Positions 2,520 to 8,474 of a stretch of DNA of 10,100 nt are shown one piece after another. The translations under genes were made by a program, and so were the position numbers. The notes under the pieces are model-generated. The model did no database searches and had not been told where the DNA came from. It was given only the letters and a program-made list of their open reading frames with translations. The DNA comes from Gammaproteobacteria bacterium (GTDB lineage: Bacteria; Pseudomonadota; Gammaproteobacteria; SZUA-152): assembly GCA_003229995.1 (NCBI GenBank), contig QIGJ01000011.1, forward strand, positions 1-10,100, in the 5' to 3' direction. How positions within the stretch are numbered: position 1 is the first letter of the stretch; every line of letters begins with the position of its first letter.

Positions 2520-2550
2520 GTAATTACTATTTCTGTAATTACTGTTTCTG
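2520..2550. repeat. 15-bp tandem repeat and small palindrome at convergent gene ends
   Basis: TAATTACTATTTCTG (2521-2535) is followed directly by TAATTACTGTTTCTG (2536-2550), a 14/15 match. The self-complementary 8-mer GTAATTAC occurs at 2520-2527 and 2535-2542, so the transcript can form an 8-bp A/U-rich stem with a 7-base loop. It lies between the stop of the plus-strand gene and the stop of the minus-strand propeller gene (2539-2541) and includes that gene's last codons. A bidirectional terminator role is possible but weak, because the stem is AT-rich and no T-run follows. Confidence 0.45.
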
Positions 2551-3819
2551 TATCTCCGACCAGGTATTTTGAGCAATGCGTGCGACACCACCAAAACTAC
2601 CAATCCAGATGTTATCTTCAACGCCATTCGCCATGGAAAATACATTATTTGCAAACAAACCGTCACGTACGGTGAAGTTGGCGAAGGTATTGTTGGTCGC
2701 ATCCATTCGGGACAAACCTTTACTCGTTCCTATCCACAGGGTGTCCGTTGCATCTATGTAGAGCATAAAGATATGGTTTCCTGGCAAGCCATCTGCCGTG
2801 GTGTAATTAGTCCATTGATCCCCATCGAAACGGGCAAGCCCACCTCCCCAGGTACCCGCCCAAACAGTGCCAGACTGATCGACTTGCAAAGAAATAATGT
2901 AATTGGGATTGTAGGCCACATCGACATCAGACAAACCTTGCTCTTCTTTTTGTTGCGCATGATGCTGGGAAGCTTTAGCCGGATCATTAGTAAACTTTAT
3001 AGCGTCTCGCACCAGCTCAATAGACGCGCCCAGGCCATCTTCATGCTGCCAGTTAGTCCACTTTCCATCCTGATAACGTGCCAGTCCAGCTTCAGTCGCA
3101 AACCACATAACGCCATTCTCGCCTTCTTCAACGCCGTAAACCCAAGGATTAGGCAGGCCTCCTCCTGTATTTTCGACGGTAAAGGTATCCCAGGCTTCAG
3201 GGTCATCTAAACGCGCACCGGCGACTCGATTAACACCAGACCAGGTTGCGATCCAAAGGTCTCCGTTGCTCGCCAGTTGGCTGTCATAAACAAACTGATC
3301 CGCCAGCCCCTGCGGTACGTTGTAATTTGACCACAAGCCTGTCGTCACATCCATGACCGACAAACCACCACCATAACTGCCCACGATAAGACGATCATCA
3401 ATACGGCTTACATGAAAAATACCGTTCGATAAAACACCGGGCGTTTTATTATCGAATACCGTGTATTGATCTGAACCGGTATCGTAACGGATAACACCAC
3501 CGGAGGTTGCAAACCAAACCTGGCCGGGTTCTGCATAAATGCCTTTAACATTGCGATTGCCAATCTCAAAATGGGCAATACGCCCCGTATCCGGCAAACC
3601 CACGGTACCGGCTCCCGAATCTAGAATTTGTGCACGCGCAGTCGCGGCTTGAACAGGGTGAGAAGAGGTAACATCTTCACTTACACTTCCCGTAGATAGC
3701 CCGCTATCAACGGTAATAATGCTGTCTTTTAAAGAAGATCCCTCTTGTCCCAATTGATAAGAAAACAGAGCAATACCTACCGCAACGACTAAAAAAACCC
3801 CAATACTTCGGTAACTCAT
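2539..3819 (-). CDS. Membrane-anchored seven-bladed Reg_prop-type propeller protein
   Basis: This 426-residue protein starts with a short hydrophobic segment (residues 6-20) without a clear signal-peptidase site, so it is probably a signal anchor with the rest in the periplasm. A low-complexity linker covers about 25-75. Seven blade motifs of the W-x-(G/A)-(T/S)-x-x-G-(V/L) type follow, at about 101, 144, 188, 238, 319, 361 and 404, as in the two-component regulator propeller (Reg_prop) family. Six are spaced 42-50 residues apart; the gap between blades 4 and 5 is 81 and holds a charged insert ending in YNPNYI (303-308). No kinase, GGDEF or DNA-binding domain is present, and the protein ends just after blade 7. 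It is a paralogue of the upstream gene, which stops 15 bp before this ATG; a GAGG lies about 11 bases upstream. Its function is unknown; ligand sensing or protein scaffolding are the obvious possibilities. Confidence 0.88.
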   Translation of the reverse strand: MSYRSIGVFLVVAVGIALFSYQLGQEGSSLKDSIITVDSGLSTGSVSEDVTSSHPVQAATARAQILDSGAGTVGLPDTGRIAHFEIGNRNVKGIYAEPGQVWFATSGGVIRYDTGSDQYTVFDNKTPGVLSNGIFHVSRIDDRLIVGSYGGGLSVMDVTTGLWSNYNVPQGLADQFVYDSQLASNGDLWIATWSGVNRVAGARLDDPEAWDTFTVENTGGGLPNPWVYGVEEGENGVMWFATEAGLARYQDGKWTNWQHEDGLGASIELVRDAIKFTNDPAKASQHHAQQKEEQGLSDVDVAYNPNYIISLQVDQSGTVWAGTWGGGLARFDGDQWTNYTTADGLPGNHIFMLYIDATDTLWIGTSKGLSRMDATNNTFANFTVRDGLFANNVFSMANGVEDNIWIGSFGGVARIAQNTWSEIQKQ

Positions 3820-3834
3820 TTACATTTGCCTCGG

Positions 3835-4950
3835 TTACTGCGTCTTCTGCTGTTGTGTAGGTGGCTTTCCTTTGGCCAAGCGAGCCACGCCACTCCGTGT
3901 ACCTGCCCATACTTCGCCTGCTGGGGTTGCTTGCACTGCATAAATACTATTACCCATTAAGCCGTCTTTGCTTTGATAGGTCTGCCAGTTTTCGCCATCG
4001 TAATAGGACAACCCATTATTGGTACCAAACCAAAAATTCCCATCCGAATCTTGGTCCATACTAAAAACGACATTACTTGCTAACCCATCTTTCGCCGTAT
4101 AATTGTGCCATTTCTTGCCGTCATAGCGGCTCACACCGCCCCCCCAGGTTCCCACCCAAACATCACCGGAGTCCGCAACCATCAAACAAAATACATAATT
4201 TGGATTGTAGGTTTCTCGCCCTTCCGTCAAAATGCCTAAATCATGACGAGCGCGCGTACCCAAACCGGTATTGATACTGGTAGGTAAATCAGCGTCGTTT
4301 GTGGCTCCCATACCGTCTTTATTAGTCCAGGCATGCCATGCTTCACCGTCATACATAGAGACGCCCCCTTCCGTGCCCATCCACACTCTGTCTTGTGCGT
4401 CAACATCGATGCCATAAACCCATTCATTGACCAGCTCTTTAACATAGGTATCAAAGTTTTCTCGTTTGGCATCCAGTCTGTTTACACCGGCCCACGTACC
4501 CACCCACAACGTGCCATCAGACTGCTCTGTTGTTGAGTAAACCCAATAATCCGCTAAGCCGTGCATAGGAAAAAATGTTTGCCACTTGCCTTTTTTGTAT
4601 GCTGTCAGACCCCCGCCATTCGTGCCAAACCAACTGACACCCGTTTTATCAACAAAAACTGAGAAAATATATTCATTGGCCAAGCCCGCCGTTCGTGTAA
4701 AAACATCGCGCACGTCTCGACTGATCAAATCAACATAAAGCAAGCCCACTGAAGTACCAACCCAGATAGCGCCCTCGGCTTTGTCTACCGCCAGAGATCG
4801 CACATAAACATCTTTACCCACACCAAATGCTTCGTGCACATAAAAATCATTGGGCTGCGACTTTAATTCCTGGGCTGCAACAAAACTAAACGAAAGTAAT
4901 CCGCCTAGCATTAAAGATATAGAAAAAAACTTAAGGAAGAATACGGGCAT
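3835..4950 (-). CDS. Secreted seven-bladed Reg_prop-type propeller protein
   Basis: The 371-residue product begins with a typical signal peptide: a hydrophobic core at about 4-22 and a probable cleavage after VAA26. The mature protein consists almost entirely of seven blade motifs: IWVGTSVGL (62), SWFGTNGGG (106), LWVGTWAGV (148), VWMGTEGGV (189), VWVGTWGGG (264), FWFGTNNGL (306) and VWAGTRSGV (347). The spacing is 41-44 residues except for 75 between blades 4 and 5, where an insert ends in YNPNYV (248-253). There is no output domain. In the Reg_prop family such blades usually form the periplasmic sensor half of hybrid histidine kinases; here the propeller stands alone. It starts 17 bp after the cytochrome c stop and is followed after 15 bp by its paralogue, so the three are probably co-transcribed and may act together. 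The ribosome binding site is weak. The family call is firm; the role is unknown. Confidence 0.9.
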   Translation of the reverse strand: MPVFFLKFFSISLMLGGLLSFSFVAAQELKSQPNDFYVHEAFGVGKDVYVRSLAVDKAEGAIWVGTSVGLLYVDLISRDVRDVFTRTAGLANEYIFSVFVDKTGVSWFGTNGGGLTAYKKGKWQTFFPMHGLADYWVYSTTEQSDGTLWVGTWAGVNRLDAKRENFDTYVKELVNEWVYGIDVDAQDRVWMGTEGGVSMYDGEAWHAWTNKDGMGATNDADLPTSINTGLGTRARHDLGILTEGRETYNPNYVFCLMVADSGDVWVGTWGGGVSRYDGKKWHNYTAKDGLASNVVFSMDQDSDGNFWFGTNNGLSYYDGENWQTYQSKDGLMGNSIYAVQATPAGEVWAGTRSGVARLAKGKPPTQQQKTQ

Positions 4951-4967
4951 CTGAGGGTGTTCTCAAT

Positions 4968-5276
4968 CTAGTACATGGATCTAATGTAGGCAATAACATC
5001 ATCCATCTCATCACGAGACAAAATACCTTGGTAGGCGGGCATGATTTGCTTGCCTTGTTCAATAATAGAAATCAAATCGCTATTGGGCTTAAATAAACCT
5101 TGACCACGGGTAAAGTCCGGTACGCCGGGCATCGTGCCTCGACCACCGTCACCATGACAAGTCGCACAATGACGGCTATACACTTGCCCTCCATTTCCAG
5201 GGTCAGCAGCATAAGCCAAACTATTTAACAGTAGACCGATAAGAAACAGTACGAGTACAGTCTGTATTTGTTTCAT
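4968..5276 (-). CDS. Small periplasmic class I cytochrome c
   Basis: The product is 102 residues: a signal peptide (hydrophobic 6-20, probable cleavage after AYA23) and a mature domain of about 79 residues. The single heme-binding motif is C37-A-T-C40-H41, and M79 in IMPAY is the likely distal iron ligand. The final helix, DEMDDVIAYIRSMY, is typical of class I monoheme cytochromes. It should act as a soluble periplasmic electron carrier, or as a partner of the propeller proteins encoded directly downstream. Its heme would be attached by the CcmFGHI system encoded upstream in the same cluster. The start is supported by a purine-rich AAGGTGAAGGAAGG immediately before the ATG. Two palindromic repeats separate it from the thioredoxin gene, and before they arose it was probably tightly linked to that gene. 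Confidence 0.93.
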   Translation of the reverse strand: MKQIQTVLVLFLIGLLLNSLAYAADPGNGGQVYSRHCATCHGDGGRGTMPGVPDFTRGQGLFKPNSDLISIIEQGKQIMPAYQGILSRDEMDDVIAYIRSMY

Positions 5277-5320
5277 CCTTCCTTCACCTTGTTTGCTCTG
5301 TATTCAGGAATGTACGTATC

Positions 5321-5328
5321 ACCTAAAT
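5321..5328. repeat. Target-site duplication, left copy
   Basis: ACCTAAAT is repeated exactly at 5450-5457, on the other side of the 121-bp palindromic element. With the preceding C (5320) and the last base of the element (C5449), the match can also be read as 9 bp. Confidence 0.8.
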
Positions 5329-5449
5329 GTAACCGTCCCGACCCCTTCTGGAATTCACCATTTCTGCGTTAAAAAATGATCATTTACACTTGTAAATTCA
5401 CATTTTTTGCCTTGAACTGATAAATTCCAGAAGGGGTCTGAACGGTTAC
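5329..5449. mobile_element. 121-bp MITE with 27-bp inverted repeats
   Basis: Terminal inverted repeats of 27 bp at 5329-5355 and 5423-5449 (outer ends GTAACCGT and ACGGTTAC) match at 25 of 27 positions. The same 8 bases, ACCTAAAT, flank the element on both sides (5321-5328 and 5450-5457), which is the signature of a target-site duplication. The palindrome continues to the centre, where TTTACA-CT-TGTAAA (5383-5396) would form the hairpin tip. There is no coding capacity, so any transposase must be supplied in trans. It lies between the thioredoxin and cytochrome genes and puts a long hairpin into their common transcript. An 8-bp duplication would suit several transposase families, so the parent family is not assigned. 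The near-identical arms suggest a fairly recent insertion. Confidence 0.85.
5368..5396 (-). promoter_or_regulatory. Possible sigma-70-like promoter inside the MITE
   Basis: Reading toward the cytochrome gene, TTTACA (5396-5391; 5 of 6 to the -35 consensus) and TTTAAC (5373-5368; 4 of 6 to the -10 consensus) are separated by 17 bases. This lies about 90 bp upstream of the cytochrome start. Both boxes fall in the AT-rich core of the element, where such matches easily occur by chance. Confidence 0.25.
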
Positions 5450-5599
5450 ACCTAAATCCTGCAAGTGATTGCACGCACTCAGCATAAACTCTTGATCCGT
5501 ATAGCGAAATGAAACTTTTCGGCAATCATAATAAGGATTACGCTCAACGTTGTCATTCGCTCTACAAATTAATATCTTGCACTGCGCAAGCACAATCAC
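5384..5599 (-). CDS. Doubtful small ORF inside palindromic repeats
   Basis: A GTG-started 71-codon frame begins 16 bp after the thioredoxin stop. I do not recognise the protein and see no good ribosome binding site. Residues 1-50 come from the 165-bp palindrome and residues 51-71 from the inserted 121-bp element, with the TAA at the hairpin tip. If the insertion and one duplication copy are removed, the frame continues after G50 for 15 more codons (DTYIPEYRANKVKEG) and stops with a TGA (5275-5273) that overlaps the cytochrome ATG as ATGA. This could mean that a 65-residue coupled gene was interrupted. Equally, long palindromes often give chance open frames. I lean toward non-coding. Confidence 0.2.
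   Translation of the reverse strand: MIVLAQCKILICRANDNVERNPYYDCRKVSFRYTDQEFMLSACNHLQDLGVTVQTPSGIYQFKAKNVNLQV
5450..5457. repeat. Target-site duplication, right copy
   Basis: This is the second copy of ACCTAAAT. It is also the outermost 8 bases of the left arm of the older palindrome at 5450-5614, so the element inserted exactly at, or within a few bases of, that repeat's end. Confidence 0.8.
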
Positions 5600-5614
5600 T
5601 TGTAGGATCTAGGT
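5450..5614. repeat. 165-bp imperfect palindromic repeat
   Basis: The left arm 5450-5474 pairs with the right arm 5590-5614: ACCTA(A/G)ATCCT(G/A)CAAGTGATTG is shared, and the four mismatches over 25 bp are all transitions. The palindrome extends inward. I count about 41 matches over the outer 60 positions of each arm without gaps, including TA-AGCGAA near 5500-5508 against 5556-5564. The centre is near 5532. The right end stops one base before the stop codon of the thioredoxin gene. It could be an old MITE, an intercistronic hairpin that affects mRNA stability, or both. Its arms are more diverged than those of the neighbouring element, so it is probably older. No flanking duplication is visible. 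Confidence 0.65.
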
Positions 5615-5615
5615 A

Positions 5616-6164
5616 TTAATCACTTCGATTAATTTCTTCTCGAAGCTGATTGACCATTGAACGCGTATGCCATACTCGCTCGCCCGCATAGCGCGCAACC
5701 AAACGACCATTTTTGCCTATCAAAAAGGTATGAGGATAAGCCACAATACCAAGCTTTTCATTCGCTTCCTTGCCGCTAAGATCCACATAATTATTGTACG
5801 TCACACCTTGATCAGATAAATATTCCAGCACCAAGTCAACGTCCTCATCAATAGACAGCCCCACTACCGAAAAAGGTTGTTCTTTTAGAATTTGTTCTAA
5901 TTTCTCCAAACTCGGCAATTCTCTACGACACGGAGGACACCAGGTAGCCCATACGTTTAGTAACACAACTTCATCCTGTAGTGAATTAAACGATATGGGC
6001 TTTCCCTCCAGCGTGGTCATATCCAGATCAGGAAAAGGATCACCTATAGTGAGCTGATCAAACACAAATTCGGTTTGCTCGCAGCCACTCAATAACAAGC
6101 ACCCCGTCAGCATCAACCACAAGCTAACTTGTTTTTTTTTAATCTCTCGTTTATGGAACCTCAT
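5616..6164 (-). CDS. TlpA/ResA-like thioredoxin-fold lipoprotein
   Basis: The 182-residue protein has a basic N-terminus (KREIKKK), a hydrophobic stretch and a lipobox LLSG-C28, so it is predicted to be lipid-anchored and face the periplasm. The thioredoxin fold carries the active site WATWC76-P-P-C79 and the cis-proline P144 in VAYPHTFLIG. It belongs to the TlpA/ResA/DsbE-like reductases that reduce disulfides in the periplasm, often in apocytochromes or copper-site proteins. The active-site CPPC differs from the CPSC of the CcmG encoded in the same cluster, so it is a second, distinct thiol-redox protein rather than a copy. The ATG overlaps the end of ccmI by 14 bp and has no visible Shine-Dalgarno sequence, which suggests translational coupling; the next Met (residue 18) would cut into the signal peptide. 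A run of nine A's encodes K9-K11. Confidence 0.93.
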   Translation of the reverse strand: MRFHKREIKKKQVSLWLMLTGCLLLSGCEQTEFVFDQLTIGDPFPDLDMTTLEGKPISFNSLQDEVVLLNVWATWCPPCRRELPSLEKLEQILKEQPFSVVGLSIDEDVDLVLEYLSDQGVTYNNYVDLSGKEANEKLGIVAYPHTFLIGKNGRLVARYAGERVWHTRSMVNQLREEINRSD

Positions 6165-7455
6165 TATTAATATTGATATCTAAGCCAATCATACCCACAT
6201 CAATAACCGCTGTCCTACCTTCAAAATCGCCACTTTGAGCCATCGCATTACCTGATTTGGAAATTCGGGCACTGACAACGATTTGTGGATAATCAGCAAG
6301 TGACATGCCCGACATCATGGCCATTTTTTCATCCAGAGTAAACTCAAACGGTAAGTCTTGCACTTGTTTCTTCAACATAGCCAGTGGCATACGCGGTCCA
6401 TTTGCTGCACGAGCATAGATAAACACCGTATCAGTCGGTGCTGTTTTCTCTTGGTACACAGGATCAACCCGTACTGTGCCCGTCACAAAAGTTGGCCCTT
6501 TTACAGATGAAACCGTTATTATTTCGTCCTCTGGCGGAATAGCGCGACCTGCCGCTCTTAAGCGCGCTTCAACCTCGGCTATATTGGTATTCATTGCATT
6601 TGCATCTTGAGAGTCGGGTTCGACTACATTCCTCAGCCTTCGCCAGGATGACAAGGCCTCCTCATAATCACCACGTTCAAAATCATAGGTTCCAGTCAAC
6701 CACAAAGACTGAACATTATCGGGATCCAGCTCTAATGCTTGTCGAATTAAACGAATAGGGCGACCATCCAAGTTACCGTTTGTTGCCATGGCAAGCGTAT
6801 CAGCAAAGTCAGCAAGAAATTGAGGATTCGTGTTAACCAAAGGCATCGCTTTTTCAAATGCACGAACTGCATCAGCATGTCGCTGCTGAAAACGGTAGGT
6901 GCGCGCCAACATCAGCCACCCTTCAAGGTCATCGGGCTGCTCTTCCATACGAAGCTCCAGCTGCTGCACCATAGCCTCAACCTGATCACCGGTATCAGGA
7001 TGCTCTCCAGAGGCACCACCGCCAGCGGGTATGCCACCTGCAGCAGGTACTGCAACGACAGCAGGCTCATCACCTGTAACGGCTGCTGGGCTTCCCAGAT
7101 CCATATAGAGTAAAACAGAAAACAACGGAATAACCACAGCCAAAACAATCACTAATGGGCGGCCACCCGGCCCTGTTGTAGTACGAGCTTGCTCACCGTC
7201 ATCTTGATTCGCTTCCTGCACGTCTTGTAAAAGACGACGTTCAATTTCGTGCTTGGTTTTCTCATAATAATCAGGAGTAATAGCGCCCATTTCATTATCA
7301 CGCTCCAGCTCAGCAAGCTGATCCTTATAAACGGATACGTTCAATTCATTATGTTCAATAACTTTATCCGCCACCTTTCTCGACAACAGAGGCGGTAAAA
7401 CAAACAACATTGCAGCAATAAAAAGACAAACCGCAATAATCCAAAAAACAACCAT
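6151..7455 (-). CDS. ccmI: Cytochrome c maturation protein CcmI (CycH)
   Basis: CcmI is the membrane chaperone that binds the C-terminus of apocytochrome c and hands it to CcmH/CcmF for heme attachment. The 434 residues show the usual layout: TM helix 1 (3-22), a cytoplasmic coiled region containing LAELERD (about 25-95), TM helix 2 (99-119), a Pro/Ala/Gly-rich linker (122-156), TPR-like repeats (160-280, e.g. WLMLARTYRFQQRHADAVRAFEKA), and a periplasmic C-terminal domain (315-425) of the type that starts with a TGTVRVDP-like strand and ends in FEGRTAVIDVG. The start follows the ccmH stop by 3 bp, with GGGGGAG 9 bases upstream of the ATG. Its stop lies inside the thioredoxin gene. In E. coli this protein is fused to CcmH; here the two are separate. 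Confidence 0.95.
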   Translation of the reverse strand: MVVFWIIAVCLFIAAMLFVLPPLLSRKVADKVIEHNELNVSVYKDQLAELERDNEMGAITPDYYEKTKHEIERRLLQDVQEANQDDGEQARTTTGPGGRPLVIVLAVVIPLFSVLLYMDLGSPAAVTGDEPAVVAVPAAGGIPAGGGASGEHPDTGDQVEAMVQQLELRMEEQPDDLEGWLMLARTYRFQQRHADAVRAFEKAMPLVNTNPQFLADFADTLAMATNGNLDGRPIRLIRQALELDPDNVQSLWLTGTYDFERGDYEEALSSWRRLRNVVEPDSQDANAMNTNIAEVEARLRAAGRAIPPEDEIITVSSVKGPTFVTGTVRVDPVYQEKTAPTDTVFIYARAANGPRMPLAMLKKQVQDLPFEFTLDEKMAMMSGMSLADYPQIVVSARISKSGNAMAQSGDFEGRTAVIDVGMIGLDININNEVP

Positions 7456-7458
7456 AAC

Positions 7459-7938
7459 CTATTTCTCCCCCGTCTCTTTATTGAGTAGAGCGGACACTCT
7501 GACCTGATCTCCTTCAGATAAAGGAGTCACATCGTCAATTATATTATCTTTTTTTCGTGTTAAGTTTCTATACAACATGAAAAGCGCGCCAAAGAACAAT
7601 AAGGCTGGGCCTAGCCAGAGCACTAAAGTAGAAGGCTTAAAGGCCGGCCGGTATCTTACAAAATCGCCATAACGCGCTTCCATATAGCTCACTATTTCCT
7701 CTTCACCCTTTCCTTCTTTTACCATTTCACGAACCTGGCGACGTAAGTCTTTGGCAACCCCGGCATCTGAACTCGCTATAGTCTCGTTTTGACAAACCAG
7801 ACAACGCAACTCGTCAGCTATTTCCATCACCTTGGCTTCCACCACGGGATCCTCAGCCATGGGCGTTGCTTCTTTAGCTGAACTACTCGCAACAAAACCT
7901 GCCAGGAAAATAATGGCCAGACCAAAAGAACGCATCAT
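7459..7938 (-). CDS. ccmH: Cytochrome c maturation protein CcmH (CycL)
   Basis: CcmH is the membrane-anchored thiol protein that works with CcmG to keep the CXXCH cysteines of apocytochrome c reduced before heme ligation. The 159-residue product has a signal peptide (1-21), the diagnostic LRC46-L-V-C49-QN motif, the helical region DLRRQVREMVKEGKGEEEIVSYMEARYGDFVRY, and one TM helix (about 105-124) followed by a short cytoplasmic tail. This is the normal length for stand-alone CcmH. The ATG overlaps the ccmG stop as ATGA, and AAGGAG lies 8 bases upstream, which supports this start over the ATG three bases later. Confidence 0.96.
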   Translation of the reverse strand: MMRSFGLAIIFLAGFVASSSAKEATPMAEDPVVEAKVMEIADELRCLVCQNETIASSDAGVAKDLRRQVREMVKEGKGEEEIVSYMEARYGDFVRYRPAFKPSTLVLWLGPALLFFGALFMLYRNLTRKKDNIIDDVTPLSEGDQVRVSALLNKETGEK

Positions 7939-8471
7939 CCTTGTAACTCCTTAATCTTAGGAATAATTATTTTCTCTAAATCCTGGTAGGTTACCGGACC
8001 AATATGCTTGTATTGAATGATGCCATTTTTGTCGATAATGAACGTTTCTGGTGCCCCATAAACGCCCCAGTCAATGGCAACACGACCCTCATAATCAAAT
8101 GCAATATGGGTATACGGATCACCACCATGGGCGCGCAGCCATCGCTGCCCGTCTTTACGCTCATCTTTATAGCTAAGCCCAACTATAGTTACAAAGTTGC
8201 GCTTGGCCAGTTCAATAAAAGCAGGATGCTCAACACGACACGAAGGACACCATGATGCCCAAACATTAAATAACCATACTTTCCCCTTCATCTGTTCTGT
8301 AGAAAAAGTCGCATTGGCATCGTGCAGTGTAGGCAGTTCAAATACCGGTGCCAATTTACCAATTAAAGGCGATGGTACTTCCGAAGGCTTCAAAAATAAG
8401 CCTTTATATAAAAACCCGACAAAAACAAAAAACACCACCAAAGGTAATAAATAATGAAAAGAGCGAACCAT
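7935..8471 (-). CDS. ccmG: Cytochrome c biogenesis thiol reductase CcmG (DsbE)
   Basis: CcmG is the membrane-tethered thioredoxin-like protein that receives electrons from DsbD or CcdA and reduces apocytochrome c or CcmH. The 178 residues comprise an N-terminal TM anchor (7-26) and a periplasmic thioredoxin fold with WASWC75-P-S-C78 and the CcmG-typical GVYGAPET segment (136-143) carrying the cis-proline. I chose the ATG at 8471. The GTG just before it (8474), directly after the ccmF stop, would give 179 residues but lies only 4 bases from the GGAGGG sequence, against 7 for the ATG. The 3' end overlaps ccmH by 4 bp. Order and spacing fit the conserved ccmF-G-H(-I) operon. Confidence 0.96.
   Translation of the reverse strand: MVRSFHYLLPLVVFFVFVGFLYKGLFLKPSEVPSPLIGKLAPVFELPTLHDANATFSTEQMKGKVWLFNVWASWCPSCRVEHPAFIELAKRNFVTIVGLSYKDERKDGQRWLRAHGGDPYTHIAFDYEGRVAIDWGVYGAPETFIIDKNGIIQYKHIGPVTYQDLEKIIIPKIKELQG
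7947..7952 (-). promoter_or_regulatory. Shine-Dalgarno site of ccmH
   Basis: AAGGAG on the minus strand, 8 bases before the ATG at 7938. It lies within the end of ccmG and supports the first of the two adjacent ATG codons as the start. Confidence 0.75.
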
Positions 8472-8474
8472 CAC

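Follow-up and report, generated by a model that had tools for sequence, protein, structure and literature searches.

The undecahaem electron transfer (Uet) system of the Tenderiales is encoded by the gene cluster uetABCDEFGHIJ (PMC10734462, PMC12575090). It is a porin-cytochrome conduit, named in Ca. Tenderia, through which electrons cross the outer membrane. In the available part of PMC10734462, UetA is given as a tetrahaem protein, UetB as a peptidyl-prolyl isomerase (PPIase), UetC as a porin, UetDEG as trihaem proteins, UetHI as NHL proteins and UetJ as an undecahaem protein, and UetF is left undescribed. According to the available part of PMC5371394, the trihaem genes Tel_16515, Tel_16520 and Tel_16530 of Ca. 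Tenderia electrophaga are among those most expressed at the cathode and lie near the undecahaem gene Tel_16545; a term search of that text retrieved no mention of a propeller, of ccm, of maturation or of the locus tags that follow. These three genes are probably uetDEG. Here we describe a unit of three genes, hereafter the trio, in a stretch of 10,100 bases (the window) that makes up one entire contig (G000:C17) of a metagenome-assembled genome (MAG). It consists of cytC (positions 4968..5276), encoding an exported class I monohaem cytochrome c of 102 aa (PF13442, E=6.3e-14), propA (3835..4950), encoding a seven-bladed Reg_prop beta-propeller of 371 aa (PF07494, E=1e-25), and propB (2539..3819), encoding a second Reg_prop propeller of 426 aa with an N-terminal hydrophobic anchor and a linker of about 60 aa (PF07494, E=6.5e-20), all on the minus strand. 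Although cytC, propA and propB are not among the uetA-J components named in the available part of PMC10734462, the distribution of homologues among genomes indicates that the trio very probably belongs to the Uet system.

Multihaem cytochromes, beta-propellers and genes for cytochrome maturation occur together both around the trio and in the Uet cluster, but the propellers of the Uet cluster are NHL proteins, whereas those of the trio are Reg_prop proteins, a separate Pfam family. The propellers also match, in sequence and fold, the exported Reg_prop propellers of the Bacteroides hybrid two-component systems BT4663 and BT3049 (PDB 4a2l and 3v9f). In contrast to these, PropA and PropB stand alone, have a lipobox or a single N-terminal anchor, lack a kinase or DNA-binding part and carry family-specific inserts. 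CytC shares a CXXCH motif and a Met ligand with class I cytochromes c such as c6 and the C-terminal domain of CcoP, but differs in gene context, cytC overlapping or directly adjoining the gene of a propeller. The Ccm System I operon is commonly adjacent to the trio, yet the trio is not a general component of it. In Geobacter, the osc (OmcS companion) cluster places the propeller-like OscD beside nanowire-type cytochromes. No description of the trio was found among the titles and starts of abstracts listed by the literature searches; the founding Uet paper (Eddie 2022) lay outside that coverage, and a prior mention is possible.

The evidence for a place in the Uet system includes an almost complete co-occurrence with UetJ. 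Genomes were counted as positive for the propellers at E<=1e-40 and for UetJ, using a profile of the 11-haem protein, at E<=1e-100. Among 369 genomes of the class, the propeller family was found in 43, spread over 22 families (two of them, G080 and G166, with the propB type only), and UetJ in 40, of which 39 are propeller-positive (Fisher p=6e-47, uncorrected for kinship). A partial control for kinship points the same way: within families f10, f91, f93, f125, f154, f107 and f139 the two are either both present (G386, G234, G115, G356, G176, G624, G697) or both absent (for instance in the same-family class-sample genomes G032, G113, G235, G147, G286, G129 and G161). In a sample of the phylum, where the UetJ search was confined to propeller-positive genomes, 20 of 398 genomes carry the propellers, and UetJ is present in every one of the 19 besides the genome of the window, 16 of which belong to other classes. 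A separate route through contigs gave ten loci, two of which (L035 = G201 and L041 = G324) had already been counted; UetJ is present in seven of the eight genomes behind the others. The 11-haem protein that defines a Uet-bearing genome thus accompanies the propellers in 39/43, 19/19 and 7/8 genomes, respectively. Because, among the bacteria sampled, the trio is almost confined to those that bear Uet, we consider it a probable missing component of the Uet machinery. A profile of a 5-haem cytochrome was positive in 39 of the 369 genomes, 37 of them shared with the propellers, but we do not lean on this result because the profile also picks up some proteins of UetJ or UetA type and is thus not independent of UetJ.

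Of the 39 genomes with both, 18 have UetJ and the propellers on the same contig, separated by about 5-44 kb (about 19 kb in G263). The six of these stretches that we read (G045, G059, G093, G176, G263 and G358) hold a Uet-like cluster on the contig of the trio, with a 4-haem cytochrome (or one cut by the end of the stretch), proteins of about 325 and about 590 aa, 3-haem cytochromes, lipoproteins that resemble propellers, a protein of 830-940 aa with 11 haems and another of about 340 aa; not all parts fall inside each stretch, and the match was judged by gene sizes and haem counts. For the copy in G093 (L113), Pfam searches recovered a doubled-CXXCH cytochrome, a PPIC-type PPIase, an unassigned protein of 598 aa, trihaem C7 cytochromes, NHL propellers, ResB and CcsA, and we read this cluster as Uet because its composition agrees with the description in the available part of PMC10734462. 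Such closeness would make joint inheritance easy, and the trio could in principle be a passive hitch-hiker, carried beside Uet on a common mobile or ancestral island without any joint function. We regard this as highly improbable, as the two also co-occur on different contigs (for instance in G002, G224 and G317, draft assemblies, in which separate contigs do not give the true distance), PropA is conserved at 49-88% identity through many families and several classes, and the order of the trio is kept while its flanks change.

The trio itself, judged from its gene order across relatives, is a conserved gene unit. Neighbourhoods were compared in 74 stretches, of which two duplicates (L087, L099) and five without a full propA (L047, L067, L071, L080, L083) were dropped; the remaining 67 loci are non-independent, many coming from one searched genus and family. 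Neighbouring genes were mapped by BLAST and profile searches, and start codons for gap lengths were chosen by rule. In all 62 determinable loci propB follows propA, and cytC precedes propA in 59 of 66, an arrangement that far exceeds chance expectation and that holds although the flanking genes change. A stop/start overlap of 1 or 4 bp joins cytC to propA in 45 of 59 loci, and the two are never more than 58 bp apart; propA and propB are separated by no more than 60 bp in 44 of 59 loci, with a maximum of 497 bp. An earlier note on the window had placed a cytochrome and two propellers on one strand at these positions, which open reading frames and Pfam bear out, and had named dispersal of the three genes in relatives as the outcome that would speak against a unit; they stay together. 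Its gap lengths of 15-17 bp are correct within the trio (17 bp between cytC and propA, 15 bp between propA and propB) but only there, because the step from the next upstream gene to cytC measures 339 bp and contains an inverted repeat. Distance matrices of PropA and PropB correlate at r=0.89 (partial correlation given CcmF, 0.61; 33 loci), a result too confounded by relatedness to use.

The cytochrome of the unit matches Cytochrome_CBB3/Cytochrom_C in Pfam, and among solved structures CcoP domains and cytochrome c6 come closest to it (best E 6.3e-13). Among relatives, which were selected by profile, CXXCH is present in 61/61 and a Met at the axial column in 58/61. A single CXXCH and axial ligation by Met mark CytC, by these sequence features, as a class I cytochrome c.

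The earlier note had described the trio as appended to a ccm operon, and as a description of the neighbourhood this is often apt: ccmFGHI lie upstream within 5 kb of the trio in 43 of 59 determinable loci. In the 16 loci without ccm, genes of System II-like (ResB/CcsA) families, identified from members in L046, were found within 12 kb in eight and were not found in six, two loci being undetermined. This arrangement suggests an assembly factor, that is, that the propellers are chaperones or scaffolds which work beside the lyases of System I (Ccm) or System II (ResB/CcsA) and, once haem has been attached, help in the maturation or delivery of the Uet and pentahaem cytochromes, with CytC as a client or redox partner. 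The recurrence of TlpA-like and TPR genes near the trio fits such a role, as do the lack of any redox domain recognised by Pfam in the propellers and the PPIase, ResB and CcsA that the Uet cluster of L113 carries of its own. Nevertheless, general cytochrome maturation does without the propellers: CcmF (TIGR00353) was found in 278 of the 369 class genomes, against 43 with propellers, and on this control we reject the trio as a general component of Ccm System I. The tighter partner is Uet, with propellers in 39 of the 40 UetJ genomes. All the propeller genomes except G356 have CcmF (42 of 43), and 40 of the 42 have just one match, which adjoins the trio in some (such as G045, G093 and G263) and lies elsewhere in others (such as G098, G109, G232 and G317). 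Because the neighbouring ccm genes are often the only set in the genome, their adjacency may be historical. As CytC, moreover, retains the signature of an electron carrier, we consider an assembly factor somewhat unlikely.

Reg_prop was the sole Pfam family above cut-off in both PropA and PropB, and the Pfam search recognised neither an output domain (kinase, receiver or DNA-binding) nor a redox-cofactor domain in either. The AlphaFold2 model of PropA, built from an alignment of 39 rows (the window copy, 33 of 120 listed homologues and five loci), has a mean pLDDT of 90.4 and a pTM of 0.90 and contains 28 strands, therefore seven four-stranded blades, as the earlier note had proposed for both propellers. 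For PropB, a read-through model of propA and propB gave 26 strand elements, two of them long, a count consistent with seven blades and with a fold similar to that predicted for PropA. The same model shows two folded domains joined by a disordered linker (pLDDT mostly 20-50) with a pTM of 0.54, on which we reject a docked pair of propellers; this is a weak negative, as only four of the nine alignment rows span both domains and MAFFT placed propA-only rows on the propB half. Foldseek placed the sensor propellers of BT4663 and BT3049 at the top for the PropA model, and by sequence the nearest solved structures are likewise the periplasmic propellers of these proteins. In the VIA re-alignment of the model, WD40 propellers score equal to sensor propellers, and that list therefore informs on fold only. 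A search of a large protein collection retrieved 2226 proteins matching PropA at E<=1e-30, of which 120 were listed, and 'ligand-binding sensor domain-containing protein' and 'regulator' are annotation names among the matches listed. Each propeller carries a strongly conserved insert ahead of a common YNPNY-type motif, and the inserts differ between the two (NTGLGTRxRHDL...YNPNYVF in PropA and DPAKxSxHHAxQK...YNPNY in PropB).

These similarities raise the alternative of an envelope redox or ligand sensor, which would signal to a neighbouring HAMP-PAS-GGDEF-EAL protein or to a histidine kinase/sigma-54 pair. A GGDEF-EAL gene does follow the trio in 22 of 52 determinable loci, and regulators lie upstream in the Sedimenticola and L039 loci. 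The regulator varies by locus, however; the GGDEF-EAL gene is absent from the other 30 of the 52, a Kelch protein is present near the trio in 15 of 55, the propellers have no output domain and PropA is usually a lipoprotein. A sensor thus appears improbable, and an ordinary two-component sensor, already set aside in the earlier note, is rejected, only Reg_prop being above cut-off.

The earlier note had assigned export signals to both propellers, a claim that needs revising for PropB. A lipobox is present in 54 of 63 PropA relatives, with Ser at position +2 in 42 of the 54 and Asp in two. The window PropA lacks the lipobox cysteine and by eye has the form of a signal peptide. Under the Lol rule, residue +2 of a lipoprotein directs its membrane destination, and since that residue is rarely Asp, PropA is probably at the outer membrane. 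Of 64 PropB relatives, 57 were scored, and 54 of these have a strong hydrophobic stretch at the N-terminus, followed by a linker of mostly 35-93 aa (61 in the window copy); on these sequence features the supposed export signal looks like a membrane anchor. By eye, the window PropB has no AxA motif.

A lipoprotein PropA probably at the outer membrane, a PropB probably tethered to the inner one and the coupled Met-ligated cytochrome together suggest a scaffold in the periplasm on which electron carriers dock. Whether the trio is a periplasmic accessory module, scaffold or relay, of Uet-type extracellular electron transfer seems to us about evenly balanced, and the mechanism by which the propellers would dock and relay falls a little short of an even chance. 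PropA would be a lipoprotein of the outer membrane that faces the periplasm, and PropB would be tethered to the inner membrane through one helix and a linker. The two would be docking platforms that hold CytC, and probably also the neighbouring pentahaem and trihaem cytochromes, and would thereby let electrons move between redox enzymes of the inner membrane and the conduit in the outer membrane. A bolder version, in which the propellers form a trans-periplasmic pillar, PropA at the outer and PropB at the inner membrane, that positions mono- and multihaem cytochromes and completes the Uet path, strikes us as distinctly unlikely; if true, a redox-free protein scaffold would be obligatory for extracellular electron transfer across the Pseudomonadota. 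For the route by which electrons cross the periplasm to reach undecahaem conduits in bacteria that oxidise cathodes and minerals, a co-inherited three-gene module would supply concrete missing parts, as well as a marker for finding more organisms with such machinery. The earlier note had pointed to redox and electron transfer, which appears to be the right area, but docking of the two propellers, within the complex of cytochrome and propellers that it envisaged, finds no support in the read-through model.

Several observations weigh against a scaffold or relay of the Uet system. The propellers occur without UetJ in G109, G166, G232 and G380, which are negative even at 1e-60, and in the Gallionella MAG of L037, and UetJ occurs without the propellers in G103, where the contig with ccm and the trio may simply be missing, because G103 also has no CcmF match. 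In most loci the nearest linked genes are those of cytochrome maturation, which favours an assembly role. In seven of 66 loci (L038, L076, L077, L091, L093, L101 and L107) cytC is absent beside propA, and the propellers can therefore work without CytC. Behind the hydrophobic stretch, 22 of the 54 anchored PropB copies have an AxA motif, a possible cleavage site, which leaves the membrane tether of PropB unsettled. Docking between the propellers was not predicted.

In the window, the gene next upstream of cytC, on the same strand, encodes a TlpA/ResA-like thioredoxin (5616..6164; Redoxin E=1.5e-22, with the TlpA/ResA models under their curated cut-offs), which also stands between ccmI and cytC in L035, the nearest relative. 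It is preceded by ccmI (6151..7455; Ig_CycH, TPR_CcmH_CycH and TIGR03142 all over cut-off), ccmH (7459..7938; PF03918, E=3.1e-45), ccmG/dsbE (7935..8474; TIGR00385 over cut-off) and a ccmF truncated by the contig end (8475..10100; TIGR00353, 643 bits, over cut-off), all likewise on the minus strand. The gap between the TlpA-like gene and cytC (5277..5615) separates the ccm genes from the trio, and for this reason a joint transcript cannot be claimed. The inverted repeat within it has arms of 48 nt at 5328-5375 and 5403-5450 that are 79% identical; a different element at 389-554 has arms of 21 nt (90%), and both resemble small mobile MITE-like elements. On the plus strand, convergent with propB, positions 598-2517 encode a single protein with VTT/DedA, PAP2-like (slightly below cut-off) and LssY C-terminal parts. 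No structured RNA in the window matched Rfam at gathering cut-offs, and a plasmid origin was rejected, there being no plasmid match at E<=1e-20.

The contig of the window is probably mis-binned, which leaves our conclusions unaffected. Among the fetched loci, the eight window proteins tested are nearest to those of G201 (L035), a member of another family (CcmF 89%, propA 81%, propB 85%), while a second propeller pair of the bin, on C377 (L006), is nearest to the bin's own genus (L055 and L057, 86-92%). In tetranucleotide composition the window contig correlates with the bin pool at 0.871, where three others of about 10 kb reach 0.915-0.937, which is a weak sign.

Among the genes that recur around the trio, an NHL propeller, an OmcE-like 5-haem cytochrome and a 3-haem cytochrome lie within 12 kb of propA in 28, 28 and 32 of 46 determinable loci, respectively. 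A Kelch protein of about 455 aa and a six-bladed NHL lipoprotein recur by the trio, for instance in L051, L058, L061, L070 and L098, and such islands can therefore encode three propeller families. In 14 of 63 loci (L037, L038, L039 and L042 among them) the gene of a Sel1-repeat protein lies immediately upstream of the trio, and ccm genes were detected next door in none of these 14. All four copies examined of the GGDEF-EAL protein whose gene follows propB (L035 12552-15017, L041 12412-14904, L045 12166-14625 and L056 6383-8983) contain a single CXXCH, located at residue 158-195, and in the sole annotated copy, that of L035, the motif lies ahead of the HAMP domain; by its sequence, the protein is possibly a haem-c redox sensor controlling c-di-GMP. 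The 5-haem cytochrome profile matches PDB 7tfs (E=4.6e-26) and 9yuq, and 4-haem (UetA-like) and 5-haem cytochromes matching these entries are encoded in L113 (4307-5146), L109 (1744-2568) and L058 (13480-14469 and 15736-16647). As we take 7tfs to be the filament-forming cytochrome OmcE of Geobacter, Uet bacteria may make cytochrome nanowires.

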